Shown piece after piece: positions 3,196-34,835 of a stretch of 36,901 nucleotides of DNA. The notes beneath the pieces were generated by a model. The model was not told the origin of the DNA. It worked only from the letters and a program-made list of their open reading frames with translations, and made no database searches. The DNA is from Patescibacteria group bacterium (GTDB lineage: Bacteria; Patescibacteriota; Patescibacteriia; Buchananbacterales; GWA2-38-13): the NCBI GenBank assembly GCA_028712155.1, contig JAQTQO010000014.1:1-36901 (forward strand), given 5' to 3'. A program made the position numbers and the translations under genes. The first letter of the stretch is position 1. Each line of letters starts with the position of its first letter.

Positions 3196-3606
3196 CTAAG
3201 ACTGGGAGCTATTGGTTCCTCCCCTTGGGGCAAGGGGAGGGTAGGAGGGGTTAACCGTTAGCGCCGACACGATCTGTTCAATTACGCCATCAATGTTTTT
3301 CATTACATCTGAATTCTGAAATCGGATGACTGCAATGGTAAATTTTCCGAGATATTCAGTTCGTTGCCGGTCGTATTTTACTTGCGTCGTTTCACCGTGT
3401 TGACCACCGTCAATTTCGATTGCCAGCCGGCGGGCCGGCGTATAGAAATCCAAAATATACGGGCCTACGCCGTACTGCCGAAAAAATTTCATCCCGAGCA
3501 CTTGCCGGTTGCGGAGCTTACCCCAGAGCAGTCGTTCGGCGTCGGTAAAATTTTTTCTTAGCCGTCGGCGTTGAGGCTTCGACGCGGAGCGGTTGTAAAT
3601 TGACAT
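3196..3606 (-). CDS. DUF559 endonuclease-domain protein
   Basis: LRKNFTDAERLLWGKLRNRQVLGMKFFRQYGVGPYILDFYTPARRLAIEIDGGQH matches the DUF559 pattern. Confidence 0.93.
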   Translation of the reverse strand: MSIYNRSASKPQRRRLRKNFTDAERLLWGKLRNRQVLGMKFFRQYGVGPYILDFYTPARRLAIEIDGGQHGETTQVKYDRQRTEYLGKFTIAVIRFQNSDVMKNIDGVIEQIVSALTVNPSYPPLAPRGGTNSSQS

Positions 3607-3633: not shown

Positions 3634-4317
3634 CTAAGAGGGGGACATCGTTTTAGTTGGTGAGGTAACGTTCAGGCCGTGCTGTTCGAAAAATTGCATC
3701 GGGTCAAGATAGTCTTTCAACCCATTTTTCGTTGCGACGTAGCCGGCAAAACGTATCGCGGTGCCTTCCCACAGTTGGAAGTGGAGGTGCTTGCGTTCGC
3801 CGTCCGTGTCGTGGGAATTGGCGTCACCGAGGATGGCGATGGTCTCCCCTTTTTTAATTTTACTCCCGACCGCTTTGGCCGAGGAAAGTTTGAGATGGCC
3901 GTAGAGCGCGGAGATAGTTTTGCCGTTGATGCGGTAGCGGATGACCAGTACGCCGCCGTAGCCGCTCACCCACTGCCGTACCACGACCTGCCCGTCCGTA
4001 ATAGCGTACACCGGCACCTCGCCCGAGATGTCGCCGTATTCAATGTCATCGCCGGTGTGGTAGCCCCTGAAACGGTCCTGCACGTACTGGCCAAAGACTT
4101 TGAACGTCCGTCGCGCCAGGTAATCGGCAATTGGAAAAACGACGGCCGACGCAGATTCCGGTGTGGCGGTTGGTGCCACGGTTGGAGTGTGCGTTGGTGT
4201 CGCTGTTGACGCGACGGTCGGCGTCGGCGCAGGCTGGGAGACTGGCGCCACCGGCGTCGGTGCGCAGGCGGACAGCAGGAGCACGATGGCGGCCGCAAAT
4301 AGCGTTCGATGGTTCAT
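3634..4317 (-). CDS. secreted lipoprotein with M23 (LytM-like) peptidase domain
   Basis: Lipoprotein signal LLLSACAP; Pro/Thr linker; YHTGDDIEYG...LYGHL...LHFQLWEG M23 motifs. Start at MNHRT chosen over the upstream 4350 Met. Confidence 0.85.
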   Translation of the reverse strand: MNHRTLFAAAIVLLLSACAPTPVAPVSQPAPTPTVASTATPTHTPTVAPTATPESASAVVFPIADYLARRTFKVFGQYVQDRFRGYHTGDDIEYGDISGEVPVYAITDGQVVVRQWVSGYGGVLVIRYRINGKTISALYGHLKLSSAKAVGSKIKKGETIAILGDANSHDTDGERKHLHFQLWEGTAIRFAGYVATKNGLKDYLDPMQFFEQHGLNVTSPTKTMSPS

Positions 4318-4321
4318 GGTG

Positions 4322-6034
4322 TTAATCCGGTAAAGTCCCCAGTTTTTCAATTTTTTCCGCCGGTACGGTCCAGAGCGTAAAACGCGGGTCGTTCGGATTG
4401 CCGATCACCGCGGTTGGGGTGCTGGTGGAAAGCCCGAGTTGGTCAACGAACCACTCGGCGCTATCGGTGCGTTTGGCCGCGCGCTCCAACGTGTTTTGCC
4501 CGACCACCAGCATGACCTGCGTATTGGTGGCGTTGGGTAAAATCGCATCAAACTGGTTTTCCTCCAGTACGGTTTTAAGGCCGTCCGTGGAGATGGCCGT
4601 CCAGCCGTGGTAGATAGTTCTGCGGATGAAATACCACAGCGGCGTCGGCCAGACGAGGTCGGCATCGTACGCGATCAGCAGGGATTTTTCCGGTTTTTTT
4701 GCCGCGCGCGCAACGCCGGCGTCGGCAAAACTCTGCAGCACGGGGAACTGCAGCTTCGGGGGTGCGGAGGGGCGGAAGCCGTCGAGTTCGCGCGCTAACA
4801 CGGCATCCAGTTGGTTATAGCCGAAGTTCCCGCCTTCGTTGCGCAGCAGCGAAACAATCCACGGGTTGCCCGGACGGTAGTCGGTGGTGAATGTATTGGT
4901 CCAGCTAAACCACCCCAGTCCGGTGACGCAGGCGAGCCCGACAAAAACGAGAATCGGCCGCCACGATTTTGGAGTCCGGTGCATCACGGCGTCGGCGGTC
5001 AGGGCAACCGTCAGGATCATCCAGGGAACCAAGAGCACCAGGAACCGGGGGCTGGGGCCGATGACCATCAGCAAGGCGACCGTCCACCCGATGCCGAGCC
5101 CGATGAACTGATTGGCGGGTTTGCGCCAGTGCCAGACAAGGTACAGCACACTCAAACCGGCCAGGGCGGACAGCGGCGCTGCGGAACGGTACAGCGTCGG
5201 GAGAAAATTTTGTACACGCTGCGTGAACGACCCGATCATTTCTTTGCCCGGCAGAAACCGCCAGGCCGGCACATCGATGCCGAGCAGTGAAGAAATTTGT
5301 AAATCAAAATGCCCGCGGTTGTGGAAGAGCGCGAGGTTGTAAATGACGATCGGTAAAATAACCACGCCAAAGACAATTTGCCCCCGCCAGAATTTTTTTT
5401 CGCGCAGCGTTGTCCGGGCGGCGATGCCGAGGTACGAAATAATGATCGGCAAGAACACCACGACGGTGTATTTAGAAAGCACGGCCAGCCCGTAGATGAG
5501 CCACATCGCGTACCACCAGCGCGGTTCTTTGAGCGCACGTAAAAAAGCATAGAGCGCGGAGAGCAGCAGCGCGAGCGTGATGCTCTCCTGTAATCCCAGC
5601 CGCGACGGCCATATCAGATAGAGTTCAACCGCGCCCAGCGCCGCCGCAATAATGCCGGCGCGTTCATTTTTTAGCTGCCGGCCGATGAGGTACAGCAGCC
5701 ATACGACCGCGATACCGGCAAACGCACTGGGCAGCCGCAAGCCCCAGACGTTCTCTCCAAAAATCCGCATCGAGAAATGCTGCACGGAAAACACTAGCGG
5801 CGGATGGTCGTGAAACGACAGGTACGACCACCACGGCCGCACTGCGTACCACTCCGCGGGCGTCCCCTGCGCGGGCGTGCCGAGGAAATCCAGATACCCG
5901 ATGGATCGCACGCCCAGGAACGCTTCGTCGGTCACAACGTCGGCGTGGTCAAGCTGCCAAATCCGCAGGAACGCAGCTCCAAGCAGAATGGCTATGAGGA
6001 TGAACGTGAAAGCCCTGGGTTTAATATGTTGCAT
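4322..6034 (-). CDS. glycosyltransferase family 39 / ArnT-like multi-TM protein
   Basis: N-terminal AFLRIWQLDHADVVTDEAFLGVRSIGYLDF...HDHPPLV, many TM segments. Confidence 0.85.
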   Translation of the reverse strand: MQHIKPRAFTFILIAILLGAAFLRIWQLDHADVVTDEAFLGVRSIGYLDFLGTPAQGTPAEWYAVRPWWSYLSFHDHPPLVFSVQHFSMRIFGENVWGLRLPSAFAGIAVVWLLYLIGRQLKNERAGIIAAALGAVELYLIWPSRLGLQESITLALLLSALYAFLRALKEPRWWYAMWLIYGLAVLSKYTVVVFLPIIISYLGIAARTTLREKKFWRGQIVFGVVILPIVIYNLALFHNRGHFDLQISSLLGIDVPAWRFLPGKEMIGSFTQRVQNFLPTLYRSAAPLSALAGLSVLYLVWHWRKPANQFIGLGIGWTVALLMVIGPSPRFLVLLVPWMILTVALTADAVMHRTPKSWRPILVFVGLACVTGLGWFSWTNTFTTDYRPGNPWIVSLLRNEGGNFGYNQLDAVLARELDGFRPSAPPKLQFPVLQSFADAGVARAAKKPEKSLLIAYDADLVWPTPLWYFIRRTIYHGWTAISTDGLKTVLEENQFDAILPNATNTQVMLVVGQNTLERAAKRTDSAEWFVDQLGLSTSTPTAVIGNPNDPRFTLWTVPAEKIEKLGTLPD

Positions 6035-6138
6035 GCAGGGTCATCATAGCAGGAGCTTTGGCGATAGTGAAAGGCCGTTTTGCCCGGCAGTTCCGCGCTT
6101 CTTCCGCGGAGCCTCGTGTCTGCTATAATGGGAACGCT

Positions 6139-7800
6139 ATGGTTTTGAAAAACAAGATAATTTTTGTTGTTGTGGCGCTGGTTGGAGCGGCCTTTTTCGG
6201 AGTGTTTTTCCGTATGAACAAAATCTGGCAAAACCAAAAATCGCCGGCCGCGTCGGGCGATTTTCCCATTGCGAGCGGAGTGGTTCCGCATCATGCGGTC
6301 GCCAAGGAAATTATCGAGAATTTTTTCTCTTCCATCGCGGCACGCGAGCAGCCGCAGGTTGTGGTGATACTGGGTCCGGACCATTTCCATATTACGGAAT
6401 TGTCCGGGAAAACGTTTGTGAGCGTCCGTCAGGATACGCGGCAGTTGAATGGTCTGGACGTTGATACGCAGCTGCTGCGGTCGCTCGCGGGTCAACACCT
6501 GGCTTTCAACAGTCCCGGCCTCAGCTCCGATCATGCCGTCACCGCGCTCTTGCCGTATGTCGCAAAATATTTTCCCCACAGCCGCGTGCTGCCGCTCCTG
6601 GTGTCTTCTTCGGCATCCGCCGCCGATATGGAAGCGCTGATGCAAAACTTGCACGTGCACGCGCCGGTGCAGACGCTGGTTGTCGCCAGCGTCGATTTTT
6701 CCCATTACCTCCCGCCTCCGGCAGCGGATTTTCATGACGTCAAAAGTATCGCGGCCGTAATGGATCGGGAAGAAAACGATTTCCGCAATCTGGAAGTGGA
6801 CTCCTGGCAAGCGGTGTACGGCGCGCGGTATTTCGCCCAGGTGCGGAAAAATTTTTCCCCGACCTTGATGGGACGGGGCAAATCATCCGATTATCTGAAA
6901 ACCGGTAGCAGCGAAGAAGTGACTTCCTACGTGAGTGCGGTCTTTAGTGCAGCAGCGGACCGGCCCGAAATTGAGCGGGGCAAAACCGTTTTGCTGGTTG
7001 GAAATATCATACTGGGTCAGGGGGTGACGGCGCTGGTGGAGAAAAACAACCCGCATTATCCTTTTCAAAAGATCAGCCAGTTTCTGCGAGGGATTGATGT
7101 GGTAGTTGGGAATCTGGAAGGCCCGCCGGTGCTGGGGCAGCCGATGGCCGCGGCCCTGGCCTCGGCGAAATTCAACCTCCTTTCATTAGCCAACGATCAT
7201 GCCTCGGATGTAGGGATGGAAAAACTGGCCGCGCCGCGGGAAATTTTATCGGGGGCAAATATCAAGACCGTTGGCGATCCCGATCCATGCGCCGGTGCGT
7301 CAATTTTTCAAAAAGAAGGCGTCACATTTTTCGCCTTCAACGCGATGAACTCCGCCGGCTGTGTAAGCGAAGACCTGGTGCGTGCGGCCCGGCAATCGCA
7401 CCCCAAAAATTTTCTCATCGTCAGCATGCATTGGGAGAACGTTTTTCCGCAGGAACTCGCCCACCGGATTATTGAAGCCGGAGCCGATGTCGTTGTCGGG
7501 CACCATCCCCAGGCCGTGCAAAAAATTGACGTGTACGGGGGTAAGCCCATCTTCTATGCGCTCGGGAATTTTGTCACCGACCAAGATTTCCCTACCCCGA
7601 CGCGGGAAGGCATGGGAATCGGCATTGAGATCTACGACCGCGCGGTCCGCTACCGGTTGTTTCCCCTGCAGAGTATCGCCAGCCAGCCCGCGCTCATGCC
7701 GCAGGCAGCCGCAAAAATTTTTCTCGCCCGCCTCGCTCAAAAGAGCGGCGTTAAATTGCGCTCGGCCATCCAAAACGGTATAATTGAAGTCGAAAGGTAA
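6139..7800 (+). CDS. fusion: AmmeMemoRadiSam system protein B (Memo-like) domain + CapA-like domain, N-terminally anchored
   Basis: VPHHAVAKEIIENFF...VVILGPDHFH...SSDHAVTALLPYVAKYFP...VASVDFSHY (Memo) then VVGNLEGP...LSLANDHASDVG...SMHWE...GADVVVGHHPQAVQ...GNFV (CapA). Start at MVLKNK. Confidence 0.9.
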   Translation: MVLKNKIIFVVVALVGAAFFGVFFRMNKIWQNQKSPAASGDFPIASGVVPHHAVAKEIIENFFSSIAAREQPQVVVILGPDHFHITELSGKTFVSVRQDTRQLNGLDVDTQLLRSLAGQHLAFNSPGLSSDHAVTALLPYVAKYFPHSRVLPLLVSSSASAADMEALMQNLHVHAPVQTLVVASVDFSHYLPPPAADFHDVKSIAAVMDREENDFRNLEVDSWQAVYGARYFAQVRKNFSPTLMGRGKSSDYLKTGSSEEVTSYVSAVFSAAADRPEIERGKTVLLVGNIILGQGVTALVEKNNPHYPFQKISQFLRGIDVVVGNLEGPPVLGQPMAAALASAKFNLLSLANDHASDVGMEKLAAPREILSGANIKTVGDPDPCAGASIFQKEGVTFFAFNAMNSAGCVSEDLVRAARQSHPKNFLIVSMHWENVFPQELAHRIIEAGADVVVGHHPQAVQKIDVYGGKPIFYALGNFVTDQDFPTPTREGMGIGIEIYDRAVRYRLFPLQSIASQPALMPQAAAKIFLARLAQKSGVKLRSAIQNGIIEVER

Positions 7801-7815
7801 TTTTTTAATCTTGAA

Positions 7816-10413
7816 ATGAAAATCAATATGGAGGACAGCAATATCGCACCAAGTTCAGTACCGCCGTCCGGGAAGAGCACGCGCACCGCACTCGTGGTCG
7901 CCGGTTTTTGTGTGGCTGCCGTTGCCGTCGCCGGTACGATTTTTTACCTCAGCCGGATCCGGCCGTCGGGAACGGTATCCCCCTCGCCGTCGGCCACGCC
8001 GACCGCGACCGTTGAGGAAACTCCTACGCCGTCGCCCATCCAGATTTCACTCACCTCGGCCAAACGCTTGATCGCGCCGGCGGATATTACTTTGGCGAAC
8101 GTCGACGTCAGCCCCAAAGTTCCCGCGTACCAGCTGCCGCTCGATCTTGGCGCCGTTTCCAACTTCAAAAATTTCTCCAATAAACTGCCGTTAAGTGCGT
8201 CAGCCAAATCGCTGCTACAAAAAAACGGATTTGCCGCGTTTCCCACGCCCAAGGAAATCGGGCAGTCACCCCAGGATTTCGCTGATTTCTATTCCGTGCT
8301 GCCGGACAAAGATATCCCGGTCTTTGTGACCACCGACAGCCTGTTGCACTACTACCATGTCTTTTTCGACACCGCGTTGATGCGGATGGAAAAGGACCTG
8401 TTCTACCAGGACGTTTGGCAGATGAGCCAGAGTTTTTTTAACGATGCGATGGAGGTGTACGGCAGCGCCAGCGACCCGACCGTCAAAGAAGCGGCCAAGA
8501 GAAACATTGCGTACCTGAGCGTTGCGCTGGAGTTGCTCAAGCCGAAAAGCGACCAAGTCGTGAACGACCAAAACGTCAAAGACGCGGTATCGTGCTACGG
8601 TTCGAGTGAATATTGCCAGGATTCCTATGCCAAAGCGCTGGAAGAGGGAACTTTCAGCAAGTTCGGGCAAAAAGAAGCGGCGCAATACTTATTCACCATC
8701 CCCGATTTCGTCGAACCGCTGGTGGACAATGAGTTGCAGCTCATCGGCGACCATAAGGGGTGGAATTGTTCGCCGGTCTTTCTCTACCAGGAGGATTACT
8801 CCCAGTACGTGCCGCGCGGACACTACACGAAATCGGAGAAATTGAAAAACTATTTCCGGGCGGTGATGTGGTATGGCCGGATGACCGATCTGGTCAAGGG
8901 TTCACCGGCGCTCGTCGCCGGGAAATGCAACCAGCACGACTCCGCAGGGTTCGTGGCAAAAGATGACGCGAAAATCCAGACGCTGGGCGCGTCGCTTTTG
9001 GCGAGAAAGTTTGCTTTGGATAAGGATATTCAGAGCAAGTGGGCTCGGCTCTACGCCATCACGTCGTTTTTCGTCGGGTACTCCGATGATTTAGGCCCGG
9101 TCGATTACGCGGCTGCCGCCAAAGGGGTGGTCGGCGGCGACCAAACGGCGGAGGTCAGCCAGCTGGCCGCCAACATTGAAAAAATTCAGCAGGTCATCCA
9201 GACGCAATTTGCCAAGCCGAAAATTTACAGCGGGCTGGGGAAGGCCGAGATGCTGGTGCTGCCCCAACCGCCGCTGACCGAGCAGCAGATCAACGAATTG
9301 AAGCAGCAGGCCGGCCAACTTTTGGCAAATACCCAGGGTTTCCGGATGCTGGGCCAGCGCGAAGTGGTGGATTCCTACCTGTTCTCCAAAATCGTTTCCC
9401 CCTATTCCGGTGAGTACACCGGCGACCCGAACACATTGCCCTTCACCTACGTCGTCACTCCGGTGGGTCGCAAAGTGCGCGGCTTTCCCCGCGGTCTGGA
9501 TATTTTCGCGCTTTTCGGTTCGGAGCGGGCGAGCGCCATCATCAAAGAACTTGGCGACGCGAGCTATTCCGATTATGCCAAGACTTTTCAGGCGCTAAAA
9601 CAGGAAATGGACGCGCTGCCATCGGACGCCTGGTACAAAAATCTCTACTGGAGCTGGCTGTACACCTTGAAATCATTGACGCCGAAGTTCGGCGAGGGCT
9701 ACCCCACCTTCATGCAGACCACGGCCTGGCAGGATAAATCATTGACCACGGCGCTGGCCTCCTGGGCTGAGCTGCGGCACGATACGATTCTGTACGCCAA
9801 GCAGAGTTATACCATGGCCGAATTGGGTGGTGCTCCTGATGAACCGATCGTCGGCTATGTTGAACCGGTGCCGGAATTCTATGCCCGATTGCTCAATCTC
9901 ACGAAGTTGACCAATGTTGGCTTGTCGCGGATGTTGACCAAGGAAGAAATGGACAACATCGGAGTGGGCGGGGCGCTGGGCAGCTTTGACACCGTTTTAT
10001 CCCGTTTGTTGAGCATCTCCAAAACGGAACTGGAAAATAAGGAGCTGGCGGACAGCGATTACTGGTTCATCAAATATTTCGGCACTCAGCTTACCGACAT
10101 CAATAAAAGCCTGGTGGGTGCCGGTTACGGCGGCGAGGTTGACCCGGATATGTTCAAAACTACCCTGGTGGCGGATGTGCATACCGACGGCAATACGAAG
10201 CAAGTCCTGGAAGAAGGGGTCGGCTATCTCTCGACGATGGCAGTCGTCTACCGGTTGCCGGACAACCGGCTGCTGATCGGTGCCGGTCCGATTTTCAGCT
10301 ACTACGAATTCAAACATCCGATGTCCGACCGGTTAACCGATGAAGCCTGGCGCCAAATGCTGCAGAGTAATCCCCCGCCCGCGCCGGAGTGGGTGAAGAA
10401 TTTTTCCGAATAG
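7816..10413 (+). CDS. DUF3160-like secreted protein
   Basis: N-terminal TM, then long domain with LPDKDIPVFVTTDSLLHYYHVFFD and LVADVHTDGNTKQVLEEGVGY. Confidence 0.8.
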   Translation: MKINMEDSNIAPSSVPPSGKSTRTALVVAGFCVAAVAVAGTIFYLSRIRPSGTVSPSPSATPTATVEETPTPSPIQISLTSAKRLIAPADITLANVDVSPKVPAYQLPLDLGAVSNFKNFSNKLPLSASAKSLLQKNGFAAFPTPKEIGQSPQDFADFYSVLPDKDIPVFVTTDSLLHYYHVFFDTALMRMEKDLFYQDVWQMSQSFFNDAMEVYGSASDPTVKEAAKRNIAYLSVALELLKPKSDQVVNDQNVKDAVSCYGSSEYCQDSYAKALEEGTFSKFGQKEAAQYLFTIPDFVEPLVDNELQLIGDHKGWNCSPVFLYQEDYSQYVPRGHYTKSEKLKNYFRAVMWYGRMTDLVKGSPALVAGKCNQHDSAGFVAKDDAKIQTLGASLLARKFALDKDIQSKWARLYAITSFFVGYSDDLGPVDYAAAAKGVVGGDQTAEVSQLAANIEKIQQVIQTQFAKPKIYSGLGKAEMLVLPQPPLTEQQINELKQQAGQLLANTQGFRMLGQREVVDSYLFSKIVSPYSGEYTGDPNTLPFTYVVTPVGRKVRGFPRGLDIFALFGSERASAIIKELGDASYSDYAKTFQALKQEMDALPSDAWYKNLYWSWLYTLKSLTPKFGEGYPTFMQTTAWQDKSLTTALASWAELRHDTILYAKQSYTMAELGGAPDEPIVGYVEPVPEFYARLLNLTKLTNVGLSRMLTKEEMDNIGVGGALGSFDTVLSRLLSISKTELENKELADSDYWFIKYFGTQLTDINKSLVGAGYGGEVDPDMFKTTLVADVHTDGNTKQVLEEGVGYLSTMAVVYRLPDNRLLIGAGPIFSYYEFKHPMSDRLTDEAWRQMLQSNPPPAPEWVKNFSE

Positions 10414-11636: not shown

Positions 11637-11658
11637 GCCACCTTTCTAGAAAGGTGGC
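11637..11658. repeat. 22-bp perfect palindrome, left boundary of AT-rich island
   Basis: GCCACCTTTCTAGAAAGGTGGC; same arms recur at 13578-13601. Confidence 0.8.
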
Positions 11659-11659
11659 C

Positions 11660-11800
11660 CAAAGTCGCGCCCTGTCTCGAAATGTAGAAAAAATCAGACT
11701 CGCTCGGCGTAAAATCGCTATGCGCATACTACCTCAGCACGCGATTTCCCACCGCCTCGCTCGCCTCGATTTTTTACCTACATTTCTCCAATGGGCGCTT
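11660..11800. repeat. nested inverted-repeat element
   Basis: GCGCCC..AAATGTAGAAAAAATC..AAATCGC..GCGATTT..GATTTTTTACCTACATTT..GGGCGC. Confidence 0.65.
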
Positions 11801-11809
11801 TAGTATTTT

Positions 11810-12553
11810 TTATTTTGCCTGTGCCCAAAGGTACTGAAAAAAGTCTCGGATTAGGCGCGATGCATTCCGGTCAGCTGTGATTACCATCGTCGGGCTCTTC
11901 TTTGTAGCATTGTTAATTGAGGTTCCAACAATATAGGCCACATCATCTACCACAAAAAATCTGTCATGAAGCCTTGGATGTCGTCGCCGAAAATATTTTT
12001 TATACTCAATCTTAAATCTATTGTCGCGCGCGAGAAATTTCCCCGACGTGTGATTTAACAAAAAATATATTTTAAGAGTTCTTGGAATTATCGCCAGGGC
12101 ATTATCAAATGTGTTTTCATCGGTATAGGAATCGGCAAAAAAGACATATTTTTTTGCTTTAGCAAGTATGTTTCTGATATGGGTATCGAATGTGACGGAT
12201 TGTCCCCAATGGAAAATTCGAAGTCCCCAACAGCCTTTTATTTCTTGTTGATCGCCATTTCCGTCAACCAGTGCCTCTAAATGCTCTATACCTTTCACGG
12301 TTACTGCGAACCATCCCCGCTTTCCGGTGGGTTTAACCCATTCGTCTCTATCTGCTCGGTCATAAAAACTCGGGTTGAAATCAGATTTCAGGATACTTTT
12401 TCTCCAATCCTTTTTGATGCGTGCGATTTCAAGACCCCATCCTGGTTTTCCCGCACATTCCCAAGCTGCTAGCGCCAAAAATTTTTGATGCCCCGTCATT
12501 TTGCCGACCGGTAGCTGCCGGAAAAACGATTTTATGCTGCTGCGATATTTCAT
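11810..12553 (-). CDS. PLD-like (HKD-type) protein with N-terminal winged-helix-like domain
   Basis: HDRFFVVDDVAYIVGTSI C-terminal PLD-like motif; N-terminal region resembles the 12900-13307 protein. Confidence 0.7.
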   Translation of the reverse strand: MKYRSSIKSFFRQLPVGKMTGHQKFLALAAWECAGKPGWGLEIARIKKDWRKSILKSDFNPSFYDRADRDEWVKPTGKRGWFAVTVKGIEHLEALVDGNGDQQEIKGCWGLRIFHWGQSVTFDTHIRNILAKAKKYVFFADSYTDENTFDNALAIIPRTLKIYFLLNHTSGKFLARDNRFKIEYKKYFRRRHPRLHDRFFVVDDVAYIVGTSINNATKKSPTMVITADRNASRLIRDFFQYLWAQAK

Positions 12554-12565
12554 TGTTGCTCAATA

Positions 12566-12910
12566 CTATTTTCTTATGACGTATTCCCATTTATTGTCTT
12601 TTTGATTAAATATTCGATTTAAGTCGCGCGACTTCACGAGCCGGAGAAGTTTTGTGGCGATCGCAGGATCACTATAGAAATACCCCATTTCACGCAATTT
12701 CCCCCTGACAGTCGACAGGCTGCGTGGTGTATCAAAAAAATTTTCATGTATAAGGGTATTAATTCCGCCCGTTACTCCACTAGCTTTTCTTTTGCTTGGG
12801 AGAACAAAATGACGTCGTGATTGCAAATCTGACTTTTCACCAAGAGTCTCGCGCAATTCCTCTAAAAGCTGTGCGATCTGACTTATAATTATCTGCGGTT
12901 TATTTGGCAT
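12566..12910 (-). CDS. hypothetical protein, probable winged-helix-like domain
   Basis: Overlaps the upstream gene by 11 nt; GGINTLIHENFFDTPRSLSTVRGKLREMGYFYSDPAIATKLLRLVKSRDLNRI. Confidence 0.65.
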   Translation of the reverse strand: MPNKPQIIISQIAQLLEELRETLGEKSDLQSRRHFVLPSKRKASGVTGGINTLIHENFFDTPRSLSTVRGKLREMGYFYSDPAIATKLLRLVKSRDLNRIFNQKDNKWEYVIRK

Positions 12911-13307
12911 ATTTTTTATCTATAGCCTGTTGGATTACCTGCTCCACAGATTCGTCAAGGATGTACTGACCTTTCTTTCCAGATTCGTGGCACCATCCTT
13001 TATCACCTGCTCGAGATGGATAGACTGGGTTGTATTTTTTTAGGAATCTCGTCATGTTAGACCACTCCTTTTCAACATCTCTTATTTGTACAATACCTGA
13101 TTTTCCGCCAGCAAGGTGCCAGGCGACTACTATCCAGCGCAGTTCGCCACTTGTGAGATTTCGGTTGTGCTGATACAGGAACGCTCTAAGCGATCCTACT
13201 TTGCTGCTTTGTAGGATTTTATGTTTGGGGGTAGTCTCCGAAAACAGAAAACCCTCGATTTTTTTGATTCGTCGATCATGATCGGCGACAGTTTTTTCCA
13301 AATCCAT
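12900..13307 (-). CDS. hypothetical protein with winged-helix-like domain
   Basis: WHLAGGKSGIVQIRDVEKEWSNMTRFLKKYNPVYPSRAGDKGWCHESGKKGQY parallels the PLD protein N-terminus. Confidence 0.7.
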   Translation of the reverse strand: MDLEKTVADHDRRIKKIEGFLFSETTPKHKILQSSKVGSLRAFLYQHNRNLTSGELRWIVVAWHLAGGKSGIVQIRDVEKEWSNMTRFLKKYNPVYPSRAGDKGWCHESGKKGQYILDESVEQVIQQAIDKKYAK

Positions 13308-13577
13308 AGCTGTTTGTATAAATTAATACTTAACGAAAATGATAATAGCGCAATGGCGTCCCATTTGTCAAGTCTTTTTACCGCCAGATGCGTTGATTTA
13401 TTGTTAACTAGATTAATATTACAATGTAAATTAACCATTTTTTCGCTAAAATTACATAATTTTTAGTACATTAGTAAATTTTTTGACTTCTCAAAATATT
13501 TATTGTCTATACAGCCAAAAATAACTTACGGCTGCTGTTAAATTCTCCAAATTTCGGAGTCTGCTCGCTGGTTTGGT

Positions 13578-13601
13578 GCCACCTTTGCCATCAAAGGTGG
13601 C
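13578..13601. repeat. hairpin matching 11637-11658, right boundary of island
   Basis: GCCACCTTTgccatcAAAGGTGGC. Confidence 0.8.
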
Positions 13602-29176: not shown

Positions 29177-31792
29177 ATGGATAACCAGCGCCCTTTTCTG
29201 GCTACCCGAACCACCACCAAAACCGGCACCACGGTTGCCGCCACGGCCATGCTCACGCTGTCCGCCACGGCGCTGTTTTTGGCGTGGGGTATGCTGGTAG
29301 TTTTATCTGGGCATACCGTAATACAGCGTGAGACCGTCCACATAGCCTTTGTGGCCGCATCAGCTCCTGAGTCGATTTTTATCCGCGGCGATGTCGATGG
29401 CTCAGGTAAAGTTGATTTAAGCGATGCGAATAAAATTTTGTCATATCTCTATTCAGATGATCAGCCGGGCTGTTTGGATGCCTCTGACGCCGATGATAGT
29501 GGAAAAATTGAGGTGGCGGATGCGGTGTATTTGTTAAAATATTTATTTTTGGCCGGACTTCAACCGTCAGCCCCGTTCCCCAGTTTAGGTGCTGATCAGA
29601 CTCCGGACAATTTAGGGTGTCCTGGGGGATTACTTAATCTCAGCGGTTATCATATCCAAAATGAGACTTATTATGATGCGGCATTCGCACGAGCCTTTTT
29701 GGATGCAGAAAGGCTCGGTGCATCAGCCTTATATATTCCCCCCGGTAATTATCCCGTGACAAATGCCTTTCGATTCGTTAGTGGCGTGAATGTATTTGGC
29801 GACCCGCATTCACCGCCAGTGTTTGAAGGTGGATGCACGAATTGCAGGTCTAATACCTTTGTCAGCATTGAGCAAACCGATTTAAAAAATGTCACCCTTC
29901 GCAATCTTCAGTTTAAGAACATACGGCTGTCCTTAAACGGTAGTAACAATTACTATCAAGCGATTAAAAACGTAACTTTTACAAATTGCGACTTTTCCAA
30001 CGGATGGGAAGATGATGACTGGAACGCAAATTACCTGTCGCTCGTTTATTCAGATGACGTGACCATAGAACATTGCACTTTTCGCCGGAGTTCTCAGGCA
30101 TACGCGGGGCGTGGAATTGTCCTGTATCGAACCCACCATAGTGTTGTGCGTGATAGCTTTTTTGGTACCTCAAACAATCTTGAGTCAGCTTCAGTCAATG
30201 GTTATTTTAAAACTGCTATCAACATACAAGGTTATAAACCGGGCGAGCCACCCCTGCAATCAGATGAGATTCGTATTTTTCGCAATGTGATTCAACGGCA
30301 GCCTCCGGACAAATGTCCCACCGATGACCACGGTAACCCGATATGTCAGGATCACGGCATTTATGGCTGGGGATTTAATGGTGTTGATATTATTGACAAC
30401 CGCGTTGGCGGATGGGACACAACGGGGGGAGGTGGAGGAATAAAACTTCGCAATGGCAGTTTCTCGCGAGTGATGGGTAACGTGCTAACCTCGGGTATGC
30501 TTTATTATACTGACCGTGGAGACGCAGAACAGCCCCTGCCCGAGTTTTTCAAAAACGTTTGGGTCCACTCCAATACCGTGAATCTTGAGGGGCCACCGCC
30601 ACAAGGATATCGAGACATTAATTCCGCAGATTTTGCATTTGGCATCTATTATCAACGGAATTTCGATCTTAATGACCCCGTCGAGTGGCATGAAGAGGGT
30701 CTGGTATTTACCGACAATTATTTTCTTCGGGGCGGACAAATTAGCATCTTGGGGCCGGATCCTTCTGCTTTTTGCATCGCCAACAATCCTGAAGCCAAAC
30801 TTTATTCTCATGAAAAGTCTCAGATCTCGGAGATTTCGGAAAATTCTAGCTGTACGCTGGATGAAGTTTGGATGAATAAACCGGTTGATTTATTCGTGAG
30901 TGATTTCAACGGCGACGGGGTTGAGGATTTTATCTATTTTGATAAACATCCCGATACCACGGGCCGTAATCTGTGGACCGCTCACCTTAGCGACCTCTTT
31001 GGGTTTCACACGGTTCGTATCATGGGCGGAGATGGTGTCTCAAATTTTTCTGCAGAAACGAATCTTTATCGCGGGGGTGTAGGCGATTTTGACGGTGATA
31101 GTCATAATGAGATTATACTTCGCGGTAAGTGCGGCGCAGACACGCGTGCCTGCTGGCAAGTGTGGCGGTATGTAAGTGAAGGGATTGATGCACCCGATGG
31201 ATTGCTTGAAATGTCTGAGAGCGGGCCTGAGAGTGGTGAATCAGGCAATGCATTTCGGCCGGATAATGAATTCAATGAACTAATACTTGCCGACTTCAAT
31301 GGCGATGGCCGCACTGAAATTGCTTACGTCGGGATATGTGGCGATGATAATCAAATCTGCTTCCGGGTTCACCGCTGGGATGCGGAAACAAAAACTTTTA
31401 TTGCCGAGAAATGGGGCGGGGGTATGAGGATTTCCAGTGAAACTTTGACGTACGGATTGAACGCCGGTGACTTCAATGGCGACCGCCGTGCGGATCTTGT
31501 TTATCGCGGCCTTTGTGGCAACGATGCGCATGCCTGCTGGCGCGTGCAGCAAAGTGAGAAAACGGGAACGGGCTTTATTTTTTCGGCCAATGATTTCGGC
31601 AACAATGCATGGTTTTCAGCGGATTCGTCGTTGCTGGGCTTGCAGCTGTCAGATGTTAATGGCGATGGAAAAACCGATATCGGTTATCGCGGCAAGTGCG
31701 GTGATGGACATCCTTGCTGGCGGGTGCATCTAAGCACAGGAAGTTATTTCCAAAATGCAGTGGATTACGGAAATGATACACCCTTCGATTAA
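29177..31792 (+). CDS. surface protein: N-terminal anchor, dockerin-like domain, right-handed beta-helix, FG-GAP/VCBS-like repeats
   Basis: RGDVDGSGKVDLSDANKILSYLY...DADDSGKIEVADAVYLLKYLF; DFNGDGVEDFIYF, DFNGDGRTEIAYVG, DFNGDRRADLVYRG, DVNGDGKTDIGYRG. Confidence 0.88.
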   Translation: MDNQRPFLATRTTTKTGTTVAATAMLTLSATALFLAWGMLVVLSGHTVIQRETVHIAFVAASAPESIFIRGDVDGSGKVDLSDANKILSYLYSDDQPGCLDASDADDSGKIEVADAVYLLKYLFLAGLQPSAPFPSLGADQTPDNLGCPGGLLNLSGYHIQNETYYDAAFARAFLDAERLGASALYIPPGNYPVTNAFRFVSGVNVFGDPHSPPVFEGGCTNCRSNTFVSIEQTDLKNVTLRNLQFKNIRLSLNGSNNYYQAIKNVTFTNCDFSNGWEDDDWNANYLSLVYSDDVTIEHCTFRRSSQAYAGRGIVLYRTHHSVVRDSFFGTSNNLESASVNGYFKTAINIQGYKPGEPPLQSDEIRIFRNVIQRQPPDKCPTDDHGNPICQDHGIYGWGFNGVDIIDNRVGGWDTTGGGGGIKLRNGSFSRVMGNVLTSGMLYYTDRGDAEQPLPEFFKNVWVHSNTVNLEGPPPQGYRDINSADFAFGIYYQRNFDLNDPVEWHEEGLVFTDNYFLRGGQISILGPDPSAFCIANNPEAKLYSHEKSQISEISENSSCTLDEVWMNKPVDLFVSDFNGDGVEDFIYFDKHPDTTGRNLWTAHLSDLFGFHTVRIMGGDGVSNFSAETNLYRGGVGDFDGDSHNEIILRGKCGADTRACWQVWRYVSEGIDAPDGLLEMSESGPESGESGNAFRPDNEFNELILADFNGDGRTEIAYVGICGDDNQICFRVHRWDAETKTFIAEKWGGGMRISSETLTYGLNAGDFNGDRRADLVYRGLCGNDAHACWRVQQSEKTGTGFIFSANDFGNNAWFSADSSLLGLQLSDVNGDGKTDIGYRGKCGDGHPCWRVHLSTGSYFQNAVDYGNDTPFD

Positions 31793-31841
31793 AGCTGATT
31801 TTTCTCTCGAGCCTAAGATACCAATAGATTGTGGGTTTCCA

Positions 31842-31874
31842 AAAGCCCGACCCGAACGTGGCCGGGCTTTTTTT
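31842..31874 (+). terminator. rho-independent terminator
   Basis: AAAGCCCGacccgaacgtggCCGGGCTTTTTTT. Confidence 0.85.
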
Positions 31875-31976
31875 GTGCACAGAAATATTGCAACGTGTGT
31901 GGTATCATAACTACGTTACTTCAGGTAGGCCATAATCTCGTCTTGGTTTTCCTGATAACCATATATTCCGTACGCT

Positions 31977-34835
31977 ATGCCACAGATTTCTCGAGTAAAA
32001 AATCAAACTCAGATTTCAACATCGGCTACAACTATTGCCGCCACTGGCATGCTTACGGTTAGCACGGTCTCGTTATTATTGACCTGGGGAATATTGGCAG
32101 CAGCCGTTTTGTCGCCGGGCGTACATCAGGAAACTGACGGCAGCGCCATTGTTTGCCAACATATGGAGTTTGCAGGTTTACGCGGGCAAGATTTCGTAAA
32201 AATTGATGCTGGCGAAAAGGCAAATGCCAGGCGATTAAAAAAGCAGGTGCAGGAGAAGATGCAACTGGTTAAAAAAAATATTGAGGGTTCAGGGAGAAAT
32301 TACCAGAGCGTTAACGAAAAAAATGAATTTGCCAAAAACATCCAGGATTTTTCCAAAGAGTTCGTATCGATGATGAGAAAGAACCCTCAGGACGCTCTCG
32401 CATTGCTGCCATCCGAACAAGAGCTCAATGATCTGAATCTGCTTACGAAAAATTGTTTCCCTGAACCCCTCAAAGCGCTTGAGGGAGCGGTGGAAGTATT
32501 TCATGCCGATGATTTTAAAAATCAGAGGAGTAAAACCGATTATTATCTCAAAGCAGCGGACAGGAAAAAATATATTTTGCATCTACCGCGAATCGAAGAA
32601 AACATTGAATCGCGAACTAAACTGAGCATCCAAAAAGCATATCAGTTGAATAATGAAGTGTTGGTTGACGAATATATGATCACCGGCCAGCCGGGCAACC
32701 CGCCGGTCTTGGGGCCGCAAAGCGTCATGGCAATTTTAGTGAACACGACAGTGGTTGATAAAGTTTTGGGCACAACAAATGAATACGATACACCTATGCT
32801 GACGAAGGCCGAAGCGGCTAACTTGCTTTACGGTGATGTGAATAATTTTTACCAAATTAATTCTTACCAAAAGATGAGTGTCGTGGGGGCGGAGAATAAT
32901 CCGGGAAATGTCGCTGACGTTTTTGGGCCATATCATATTACCGTTACAGTAAACAGTTATTATTGTTCAAAAGACCAATCTTTATCGTGTAGCGGTTCGT
33001 GTCCGGACGGTAAGGGCAGCTGCCAGGCGTATATTGATTTTGGAGCAATGTATACCTCAATTATCCGGGCAGCCGATGCGGACATTGATTTTCGTAAATA
33101 TGGCGGTGTTTTGTCGTTTGTTTCAATGCCCTCGCTAGATATATGGCAAGGGATTTCCAGCGCGGGAAAAATATCAACCATCTCTAACGACTTTGGTACC
33201 GATGAGGTTAACCAATCAATAGCCGCAGTATTATTGGGTGATTATCTGGAAGGCAATGAAATTACCACGGCCCACGAACTGGGGCATAGTTTTGGCTCAG
33301 TTAATCACGCTGGATACCTTAATTGCGATAATTCTTTTGACTTCAATGTTGACTGTCGGTCGGAATACGGGGATTTGTATGACGTTATGGGTTTAGGGGA
33401 TTTTTTCCACTTTAACGCCAAAATGAAAGAAAGTTTTGGCTGGCTTGCGGCCGATCACGAAAATCACAAAATTATCACCGTGACAAAAGATACGAGCGAG
33501 CCGATATACCTTGACCCGATTGAGAAACAAGACGGTAAAATTCAGGGCGTGCGGTTTCGCCGAGGCCCTGACGATGGTTATAAAGATTTATATATAGAAT
33601 ACAGGCAGCCGGATGTTTTGGACGAAAAAATTTTTGGTAAGGCCCTTGAATTTGGAGCACAAACCGATGTTTTCTCCGGCGCGTTATTGCATCTTTCATA
33701 CATCGGTAGCTCTGTTTTACTTGATGTCCAGCCGCCGGCCAAAGTCTATAAAGATTTATTTTTAAGCACCATTCACGCAGCTACGGAAAGCGGGAAATAT
33801 TCATATTATACTGATCCTTATTCCGGCACGAAAATCGGAGTGGGCAAACCCGATCCGGTGCGCGGCCTGCCGGTGATGATTGATATCGGGCGGACCGATT
33901 TTACGCCGCCAGTTATAGATTCTTTTGAGTTTCTCAGTTATAACGAGGAAGACTGCTCTGGAAATTTTAAAATTACCGCCTCGGACGCTGAAACCGGCAT
34001 TTCAAAAATTGAAGCATTGGACCAAACATTTTTTTCTGATGAAGCGATTGTTCGGGTGCCCTCAACGCTTTTCAACTCCTCTATTGCCGTTACAGTTTTT
34101 GATAACGTGGAAAGTCAAGGAGGCGTTGGAAATAATGTAACAAAAATGAATTTTAATACTCCATTTAACAATTGCGACATTAAACCAATAATTACTGTTT
34201 CCTCGCCACTTTTTACTAATGATTATGTCTTTGAGCCAAATTATGATACTGCCAATGAAGTTGTCATAAAAGAAGTAATCACTAACCCGGCCATTATAAA
34301 TTTTAATATTACAGACGATAGCTTGTCTTCGGTATATATATCCGAATTTTTTAAGGATGATCTTTATAATTATGCGTCTAGAGACCCTCTGCGCAGTTTT
34401 AAAAATTTTTCTTATACATTACGCCGAATGCTAACTCCGGGCCGGCACGAGATTGTTATTGACGGCGTGAATAGCGGTCACTCCTATTTTGCCATTATAA
34501 TTTTTGACGTCGTTCAATCACCAAGGTTTGTCCGCGGGGATGTCAATCAAGATGGGCGAATCGATGTGAGCGACTCCGTGACCATTTTGGAAAATCTCTA
34601 TCAAGGTACGGCGCCGATCAACTGTCTCGACTCGGCCGACGTTAATAATGACGAAGAGTTAAACCTGACCGACGGGGTGGCTTTGTTGCAAAATCTGTTT
34701 ATGTCGGAAAAGCCAGCGGACGTTAATCTCAGTAAGACCTGCGAAATTGATTTGGCGATTTTCGATTTGAATACCGAAAGCTTGGATACCGAGAAAATTG
34801 ACTGCGGAAGTTTTACCGCGGGAAACTGTAACTGA
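31977..34835 (+). CDS. surface metalloprotease (M11/M6-like, HExxHxxxxxH) with C-terminal dockerin-like domain
   Basis: TAHELGHSFGSVNHAGYLNC...SEYGDLYDVMGLGDFFHFNAKMKESFGWL; C-terminal RGDVNQDGRIDVSDSVTILENLY...ADVNNDEELNLTDGVALLQNLF. Confidence 0.85.
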   Translation: MPQISRVKNQTQISTSATTIAATGMLTVSTVSLLLTWGILAAAVLSPGVHQETDGSAIVCQHMEFAGLRGQDFVKIDAGEKANARRLKKQVQEKMQLVKKNIEGSGRNYQSVNEKNEFAKNIQDFSKEFVSMMRKNPQDALALLPSEQELNDLNLLTKNCFPEPLKALEGAVEVFHADDFKNQRSKTDYYLKAADRKKYILHLPRIEENIESRTKLSIQKAYQLNNEVLVDEYMITGQPGNPPVLGPQSVMAILVNTTVVDKVLGTTNEYDTPMLTKAEAANLLYGDVNNFYQINSYQKMSVVGAENNPGNVADVFGPYHITVTVNSYYCSKDQSLSCSGSCPDGKGSCQAYIDFGAMYTSIIRAADADIDFRKYGGVLSFVSMPSLDIWQGISSAGKISTISNDFGTDEVNQSIAAVLLGDYLEGNEITTAHELGHSFGSVNHAGYLNCDNSFDFNVDCRSEYGDLYDVMGLGDFFHFNAKMKESFGWLAADHENHKIITVTKDTSEPIYLDPIEKQDGKIQGVRFRRGPDDGYKDLYIEYRQPDVLDEKIFGKALEFGAQTDVFSGALLHLSYIGSSVLLDVQPPAKVYKDLFLSTIHAATESGKYSYYTDPYSGTKIGVGKPDPVRGLPVMIDIGRTDFTPPVIDSFEFLSYNEEDCSGNFKITASDAETGISKIEALDQTFFSDEAIVRVPSTLFNSSIAVTVFDNVESQGGVGNNVTKMNFNTPFNNCDIKPIITVSSPLFTNDYVFEPNYDTANEVVIKEVITNPAIINFNITDDSLSSVYISEFFKDDLYNYASRDPLRSFKNFSYTLRRMLTPGRHEIVIDGVNSGHSYFAIIIFDVVQSPRFVRGDVNQDGRIDVSDSVTILENLYQGTAPINCLDSADVNNDEELNLTDGVALLQNLFMSEKPADVNLSKTCEIDLAIFDLNTESLDTEKIDCGSFTAGNCN

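Follow-up and report, generated by a model that had tools for sequence, protein, structure and literature searches.

An AT-rich operon of winged-helix proteins and a PLD-like protein in Patescibacteria: a candidate member of a modular defence family

Three genes, here called A, B and C, form a compact operon on a contig of a Patescibacteria group bacterium (JAQTQO010000014.1); the window, i.e. the whole stretch of DNA that was analysed, comprises 36,901 nucleotides. Related cassettes were found at 14 loci, all of them in Patescibacteria except for one in an Acidobacteria-labelled bin, and across these loci the effector gene is exchanged while the small genes stay. In our judgement it is somewhat probable that A-B-C is a minimal representative of a defence family of the abortive-infection type, one that is modular, spreads horizontally and swaps its effectors, with winged-helix proteins acting as sensors or adaptors. 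A candidate defence or conflict system had already been proposed from the sequence alone, and this proposal is supported by the co-occurrence of the genes, an association with restriction-modification systems, the low GC content and the patchy distribution.

The defence of uncultivated Patescibacteria is poorly known. Should our reading be right, a defence family with several genes and swapped effectors would be gained, and the five families of short proteins, A, B, D, E and F, would provide annotators with markers of hidden defence loci. A further, testable question would be whether winged helices are able to link a sensor to a suicide effector as adaptors, instead of acting as transcription factors.

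Layout, composition and boundaries of the operon

The features of the island are as follows.

11637..11658, no strand assigned: left bounding hairpin GCCACCTTT-CTAG-AAAGGTGGC, copy of a repeat dispersed over the genome, taken as boundary mark
11667..11798, no strand assigned: MITE-like palindromic repeat downstream of gene C, imperfect inverted ends of 27 nt (74%); contigs C2 and C31 have pieces related to it
11810..12553, minus strand: gene C (247 aa), A-type winged helix plus PLD-fold domain, candidate nuclease effector
11813..12241, minus strand: predicted PLD-fold domain of C, residues 105-247 (VIA-align; PADLOC PDC-S05 E=7e-13)
11945..11968, minus strand: HDR(x4)D motif of C, residues 196-203, where Nuc has HxK(x4)D
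12260..12553, minus strand: predicted winged-helix domain of C, residues 1-98 (AlphaFold2 secondary structure, pLDDT ~92; A HMM E=2e-10)
12566..12910, minus strand: gene B (114 aa), predicted N-terminal helix 4-23, linker and winged helix 46-112 (AlphaFold2 pLDDT 82; Foldseek; family alignment)
12900..13307, minus strand: gene A (135 aa), N-terminal helix plus A-type winged-helix domain, predicted from sequence and homologous to the C N-terminus
13342..13371, minus strand: putative sigma-70-like promoter, TTGACA-18-TATTAT, 11/12 consensus match, 35 bp upstream of gene A
13578..13601, no strand assigned: right bounding hairpin GCCACCTTT-GCCATC-AAAGGTGGC, dispersed repeat, directly behind the stop codon of an HD-domain gene

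The three minus-strand frames (A 13307-12900, B 12910-12566, C 12553-11810) lie exactly where the sequence-only reading had placed them and run in the same direction, A and B overlapping by 11 nt and B and C being separated by 12 nt. The island is also, as that reading had it, more AT-rich than its neighbours. GC is 0.38–0.43 between 11.7 and 13.8 kb and 0.52–0.60 on both sides; for the operon itself it is 0.422 compared with 0.546 for the rest of the window, and the operon falls within the lowest 3.4% of the contig's 1.5-kb stretches. Three promoter-like sites were found versus 4.6 expected from shuffles; the one at 13342..13371 scores 11/12 and is correctly placed, and it probably drives the whole operon.

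The island coordinates 11637-13601 correspond to two GCCACCTTT...AAAGGTGGC hairpins, the left one being joined to the MITE-like repeat. This repeat family has seven exact copies in the genome versus none in a reversed control. A role of the hairpins as terminators was considered and rejected, as they show no clear T-run on the island side and are scattered repeats, and they are taken as boundary marks only. On contig C58 of the same genome (15887-17211; L008:3388-4712) two GCCACCTTT hairpins bracket a SocA/Panacea antitoxin gene (Pfam E=3e-19) and a gene for a 137-aa protein, the only other hairpin-bracketed cassette seen in the genome. Such cassettes may be a type of small mobile element in this genome, and the pair suggests a preferred site or vehicle for conflict cassettes, although two cases prove nothing. 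In an empty-site comparison the neighbouring HD gene was found to have homologues in relatives, those outside the genus being distant ones only, and the comparison revealed no empty site.

The layout would also suit a toxin-antitoxin (addiction) module with C as the toxin and A and B as winged-helix antitoxins or repressors that bind C and autoregulate the promoter, phage defence being secondary. Small DNA-binding-like genes precede the candidate toxin in one tight operon with overlapping frames, AT-rich palindromic stretches ahead of the promoter might act as operators, and the second hairpin-bracketed cassette bears the SocA/Panacea antitoxin. We nevertheless regard such a module as fairly unlikely in view of the homologous loci, which are described below.

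A further, longer AT-rich stretch of the window lies at ~29.4-34.8 kb. This stretch (29177-34835 with its genes) encodes two long secreted proteins (871 and 952 aa) that look dockerin-like by eye, and it was possibly acquired as well. Elsewhere in the window small ORFs at 2074-2361 and 3196-3606 resemble, by eye only, a GIY-YIG protein and a DUF559/Vsr-like protein.

Domains of the encoded proteins

Structure prediction, which had been proposed as a check, gave B a winged helix, and for C it combined such a domain with a PLD fold. The winged-helix domain of B reached an AlphaFold2 pLDDT of 92–97, and Foldseek placed the B model with winged helices of the MarR/Fur/BlaI type. A and the N-terminus of C are the same domain, as the sequence-only reading had recognised: BLASTP aligned them at E=1e-6 (24% identity over 80 aa), an HMM built from A-type proteins only matches C (E=2e-10), and in the reverse direction a C HMM matches A at 4.5e-10. 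The same reading had described both partners as paralogous winged-helix-like proteins. This holds for A, and B is indeed a predicted winged helix, but it is no detectable paralogue, profile comparison having found no homology between A and B (hhalign probability 0.4%). To judge from sequence, only A and C are demonstrably paralogous among the three; in addition A is homologous to E, a small protein of other loci (hhalign 93%, E=4e-7).

Neither A nor B has a family in Pfam, NCBIfam, PADLOC or PHROGs. PDB sequence searches with B, with C alone and with a HEPN-like effector found no relatives, and an Rfam search gave no match.

The AlphaFold2 model of C (six sequences; mean pLDDT 83, pTM 0.53) bears out the earlier description of C as a PLD-like protein. 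The closest fits of its PLD domain in VIA-align are the nucleases NucT (Z 16.2) and Nuc (Z 15.3), with an rmsd of 2.3–2.5 over 136–138 residues; the other nucleases follow with 14.6 for Zucchini, 14.1 for SauUSI, 12.4 for NgoAVII R and 10.6 for BfiI. Among non-nuclease folds the pseudo-enzyme FAM83 scores 15.8, TrmB 13.6 and MITD1 10.8. Since C resembles FAM83 and TrmB as well, the fold alone is no proof of activity, and pseudo-PLD folds such as FAM83, MITD1 and TrmB do exist.

The candidate catalytic motif H196-D-R198-(x4)-D203 aligns to the HDK(x4)D of Nuc (1byr). Strict HxK(x4)D has no match in C, as lysine is replaced by arginine in all homologues; H, R and D, plus the Gly/Ser after them, are invariant among these homologues, and H-D-R and Gly are invariant in nine diverse PLDs of the HDR type, including fusions with ORF6N as well as representatives from Roizmanbacteria and Acidobacteria. 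We know of no characterised HDR-type PLD enzyme. We take C to be a putative nuclease; the lysine-to-arginine change, together with the TrmB-like layout, leaves some probability for a non-catalytic role.

That layout could also mean that C is a transcription regulator similar to TrmB, i.e. a winged helix joined to a catalytically dead, ligand-binding PLD fold, with A and B as further regulators. TrmBL2, which like TrmB combines both domains in one chain, is the top Foldseek match of C (E=4.8e-10), and the arginine in the HKD motif would fit a dead enzyme. Against this, C differs from TrmB and TrmBL2 in its conserved HDR(x4)D motif, residues of which persist even in distant PLDs, and in an operon context with exchanged effectors, where HEPN-like proteins take its position at other loci; moreover its PLD domain alone fits NucT and Nuc better, and the Pfam matches of C up to E=1 contain none to the TrmB model. 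We therefore consider a TrmB-like regulator very unlikely and continue with C as a putative nuclease. The characterised enzymes Nuc, NucT, BfiI, NgoAVII and SauUSI have, like C, the PLD fold (Z 10.6–16.2) with a single catalytic motif per chain; they differ from C in having HxK instead of HxR, and C in addition has an N-terminal winged helix and the partner genes A and B. The C-terminal PLD-like domain of MITD1 (Pfam MIT_C) also matches the fold of C (Z 10.8), and C relatives in L054 and L069 match MIT_C below threshold; MITD1, however, is a eukaryotic membrane-binding protein without a cassette-like context.

Homologous loci and exchange of the effector

Single scans took in as many as 380 class genomes and 379 phylum genomes, and 84,980 GTDB genomes were searched by pattern. 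The family is rare: full-length C occurs in only four of the 380 class genomes, the window's own counted in. Each locus combines 1–5 small winged-helix genes of families A, B, D, E and F with a varying effector, which is a C-type PLD, one of three other HDR-PLDs or one of two HEPN-like proteins. The gene orders, read 5' to 3', are as follows.

Window: A-B-C
G017: B-F-A-C
Falkowbacteria: B-A-A-C
Kerfeldbacteria: [B fusion]-C
Liptonbacteria: D-E-B-C
CSMAG_1227: B-F-B-A-C, then a B+Ymh-HEPN fusion
Acidobacteriaceae bin: B-A-C-B-B
G011: B-A-HEPN1
G280: B-B-A-PLD2
G675: E-A-HEPN1-TM
G490: B-B-F-B-HEPN1
G710: D-E-A'-A-HEPN2
G501: D-PLD3
Roizmanbacteria: E-B-PLD4

The conserved co-occurrence on which the sequence-only reading had staked its proposal is present at every locus open to inspection. 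Each of the seven full-length C homologues has neighbours of the A, B or D/E type, and close to each A-type gene found there is, within the same operon, a gene for a PLD or HEPN-like protein. In every cassette one to five small proteins, each with a winged helix behind an N-terminal helix, accompany an HDR PLD or HEPN-like effector, and C-type effectors carry a winged helix of their own. As the Acidobacteria bin has two more B genes behind its effector, the effector is not always last. The remaining small proteins are D, E and F, of which F is BlaI-like, and the HEPN1 proteins have an invariant SNRG-x-RHD motif in common; D, E, F and HEPN1 gave no confident match in Pfam, PADLOC and/or NCBIfam. 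We call the exchanged effectors HEPN-like on account of an R-x3-H motif and one sub-threshold Pfam match, which are suggestive of such a domain. Directly after a C-type PLD operon, at L025:5201-5965, a B-type winged helix and a Ymh (PF09509) HEPN domain are fused in one protein. One weak match in G327 was dropped because it looks like a chance match in another frame.

At 13 of the 14 loci the GC content of the cassette is below that of the flanks (sign test P=0.002). The closest relative of the window's C is the Acidobacteria-labelled C protein (40%), making transfer between phyla likely unless that contig is mis-binned. It is from composition and distribution only that we infer mobility of the cassette. 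C had no match among 50,697 phage records, and neither C, the C protein of the Acidobacteria bin (L026) nor the HEPN-like effector of L106 matched any of 72,556 plasmids. Viral contigs contained no match to the C protein or the HEPN-like effector; a search of them with the C alignment returned one match, to the PLD only, and for such a scan the A and B profiles proved too divergent.

Defence neighbourhood, proposed function and known systems

A search for a defence-island association, another of the proposed checks, found a restriction methylase within ~4 kb at 6 of the 14 loci, the window not being among them. The E-A-HEPN-like-TM cassette of L070 (G675; 4463-6199) interrupts a complete type I restriction operon, with hsdM on one side of it and hsdS on the other. 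The cassette follows a TdeIII-type restriction enzyme and methylase in L068 (G011) and an Eco57I-type enzyme in L069 (G280). In L106 (G490; 4022-9393) the B-B-F-B genes and their HEPN-like effector continue in one run into a SIR2-like gene, a methylase of the Eco57I type and the restriction enzyme Tsp45I. The cassette in the Acidobacteria bin (L026) is accompanied by HsdM/HsdS and by AbiEi, an EcoRI-type methylase lies 3.4 kb off in Kerfeldbacteria (L018), and a Mrr-type endonuclease is among the neighbours in CSMAG_1227. A partial control, which took all PF02384 and PF01555 methylases of ten cassette genomes and is limited to these two families, rounded genome sizes and few loci, gave three loci with such a methylase within ~6 kb versus 0.25 expected (Poisson P ~0.002). 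At about half of the loci, the window among them, no restriction methylase is close by, and the window's own genome has no PF02384 match. A restriction or defence neighbourhood is a recurrent feature of the cassettes, as in defence islands, and is not found at the window itself.

These neighbours bear on the possibility of a guided restriction system, a multi-subunit relative of BfiI and NgoAVII in which the winged-helix proteins recognise particular (e.g. unmodified) DNA and recruit the PLD protein to cut it. Winged helices usually bind DNA, the PLD restriction enzymes BfiI, NgoAVII and SauUSI have the fold of C, and several loci have methylases nearby; but the small proteins occur just as well with HEPN-like effectors, a class that acts on RNA, and the window operon, as just described, has no methylase beside it. 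We consider guided restriction distinctly unlikely. That effectors of two unrelated kinds, PLD and HEPN-like (the latter RNase-type), occur with the same small winged-helix proteins makes a role of these as sensors or adaptors for a general suicide effector likelier than pure DNA targeting.

The loci likewise speak against the toxin-antitoxin module introduced above. One to five small winged-helix genes of mixed families per cassette exceed what an antitoxin would need, the position of the L070 cassette inside a restriction operon and of others beside such operons is typical of defence accessories, and the plasmid searches described above found none.

In the abortive-infection reading, which we prefer, A and B would oligomerise via their N-terminal helices, while A and C would pair through the A-type winged helix that they have in common. 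The complex would keep C inactive until a signal derived from infection is bound. The winged-helix proteins might bind this signal, which could be phage nucleic acid or protein or the inhibition of a neighbouring restriction system. Single-HKD PLD nucleases dimerise, and C may do so after the signal and then degrade nucleic acid, which would stop the infected cell, i.e. cause abortive infection. More tentatively, and rather doubtfully, the cassettes might constitute an undescribed class of prokaryotic immune operon, in which a variable set of small coiled-coil/winged-helix proteins forms a signalling scaffold and matching winged helices dock interchangeable PLD or HEPN effectors to it. If true, bacteria, here Patescibacteria that are small and depend on a host, would have an equivalent of adaptor-domain immune signalling.

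Swappable HEPN and PLD effectors with one partner domain in restriction-modification operons are already known for the AbiJ-NTDs: according to PMC3710099, AbiJ-NTD1/2 is an N-terminal domain common to HEPN and HKD-PLD effectors in such operons. HEPN/Ymh/AbiJ-type abortive-infection genes resemble the cassettes in their common partner, their swappable effectors and their embedding, and one relative (L025) has the fusion of a B-type winged helix to Ymh HEPN. Whereas AbiJ-NTD systems share a fused domain, the cassettes share separate small winged-helix genes, and the AbiJ-NTD Pfam models do not match A, B or C. Panacea/SocA toxin-antitoxin systems, too, combine a constant small partner with many effectors and may be likened to the cassette; the Panacea domain, however, is not found in A or B by Pfam, and the cassettes have winged helices as partners, frequently several in one operon. 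The covered literature on systems with winged helices, HEPN and PLD, mainly on CoCoNuT, BREX and Dnd and in HEPN surveys and mostly outside subscription papers, does not describe this operon.

PADLOC 2.0.0 gave no match for A and B and matched C via its PLD domain only, to the phage-defence candidate PDC-S05 and to no named system. PDC-S05, a single gene combining ORF6N and PLD, shares the HDR-type PLD domain with C (E=7e-13, residues 112-231); in the place of ORF6N, C has the A-type winged helix, with no Pfam ORF6N match, and in the window it ends a multi-gene operon. Fusions of an ORF6N-type or related N-terminal domain to an HDR-PLD were also observed in Patescibacteria (L022:4460-5374, L023:1361-2203 and L056:889-1878), the ORF6N+PLD protein of L022 matching PDC-S05 over its full length (3e-123).
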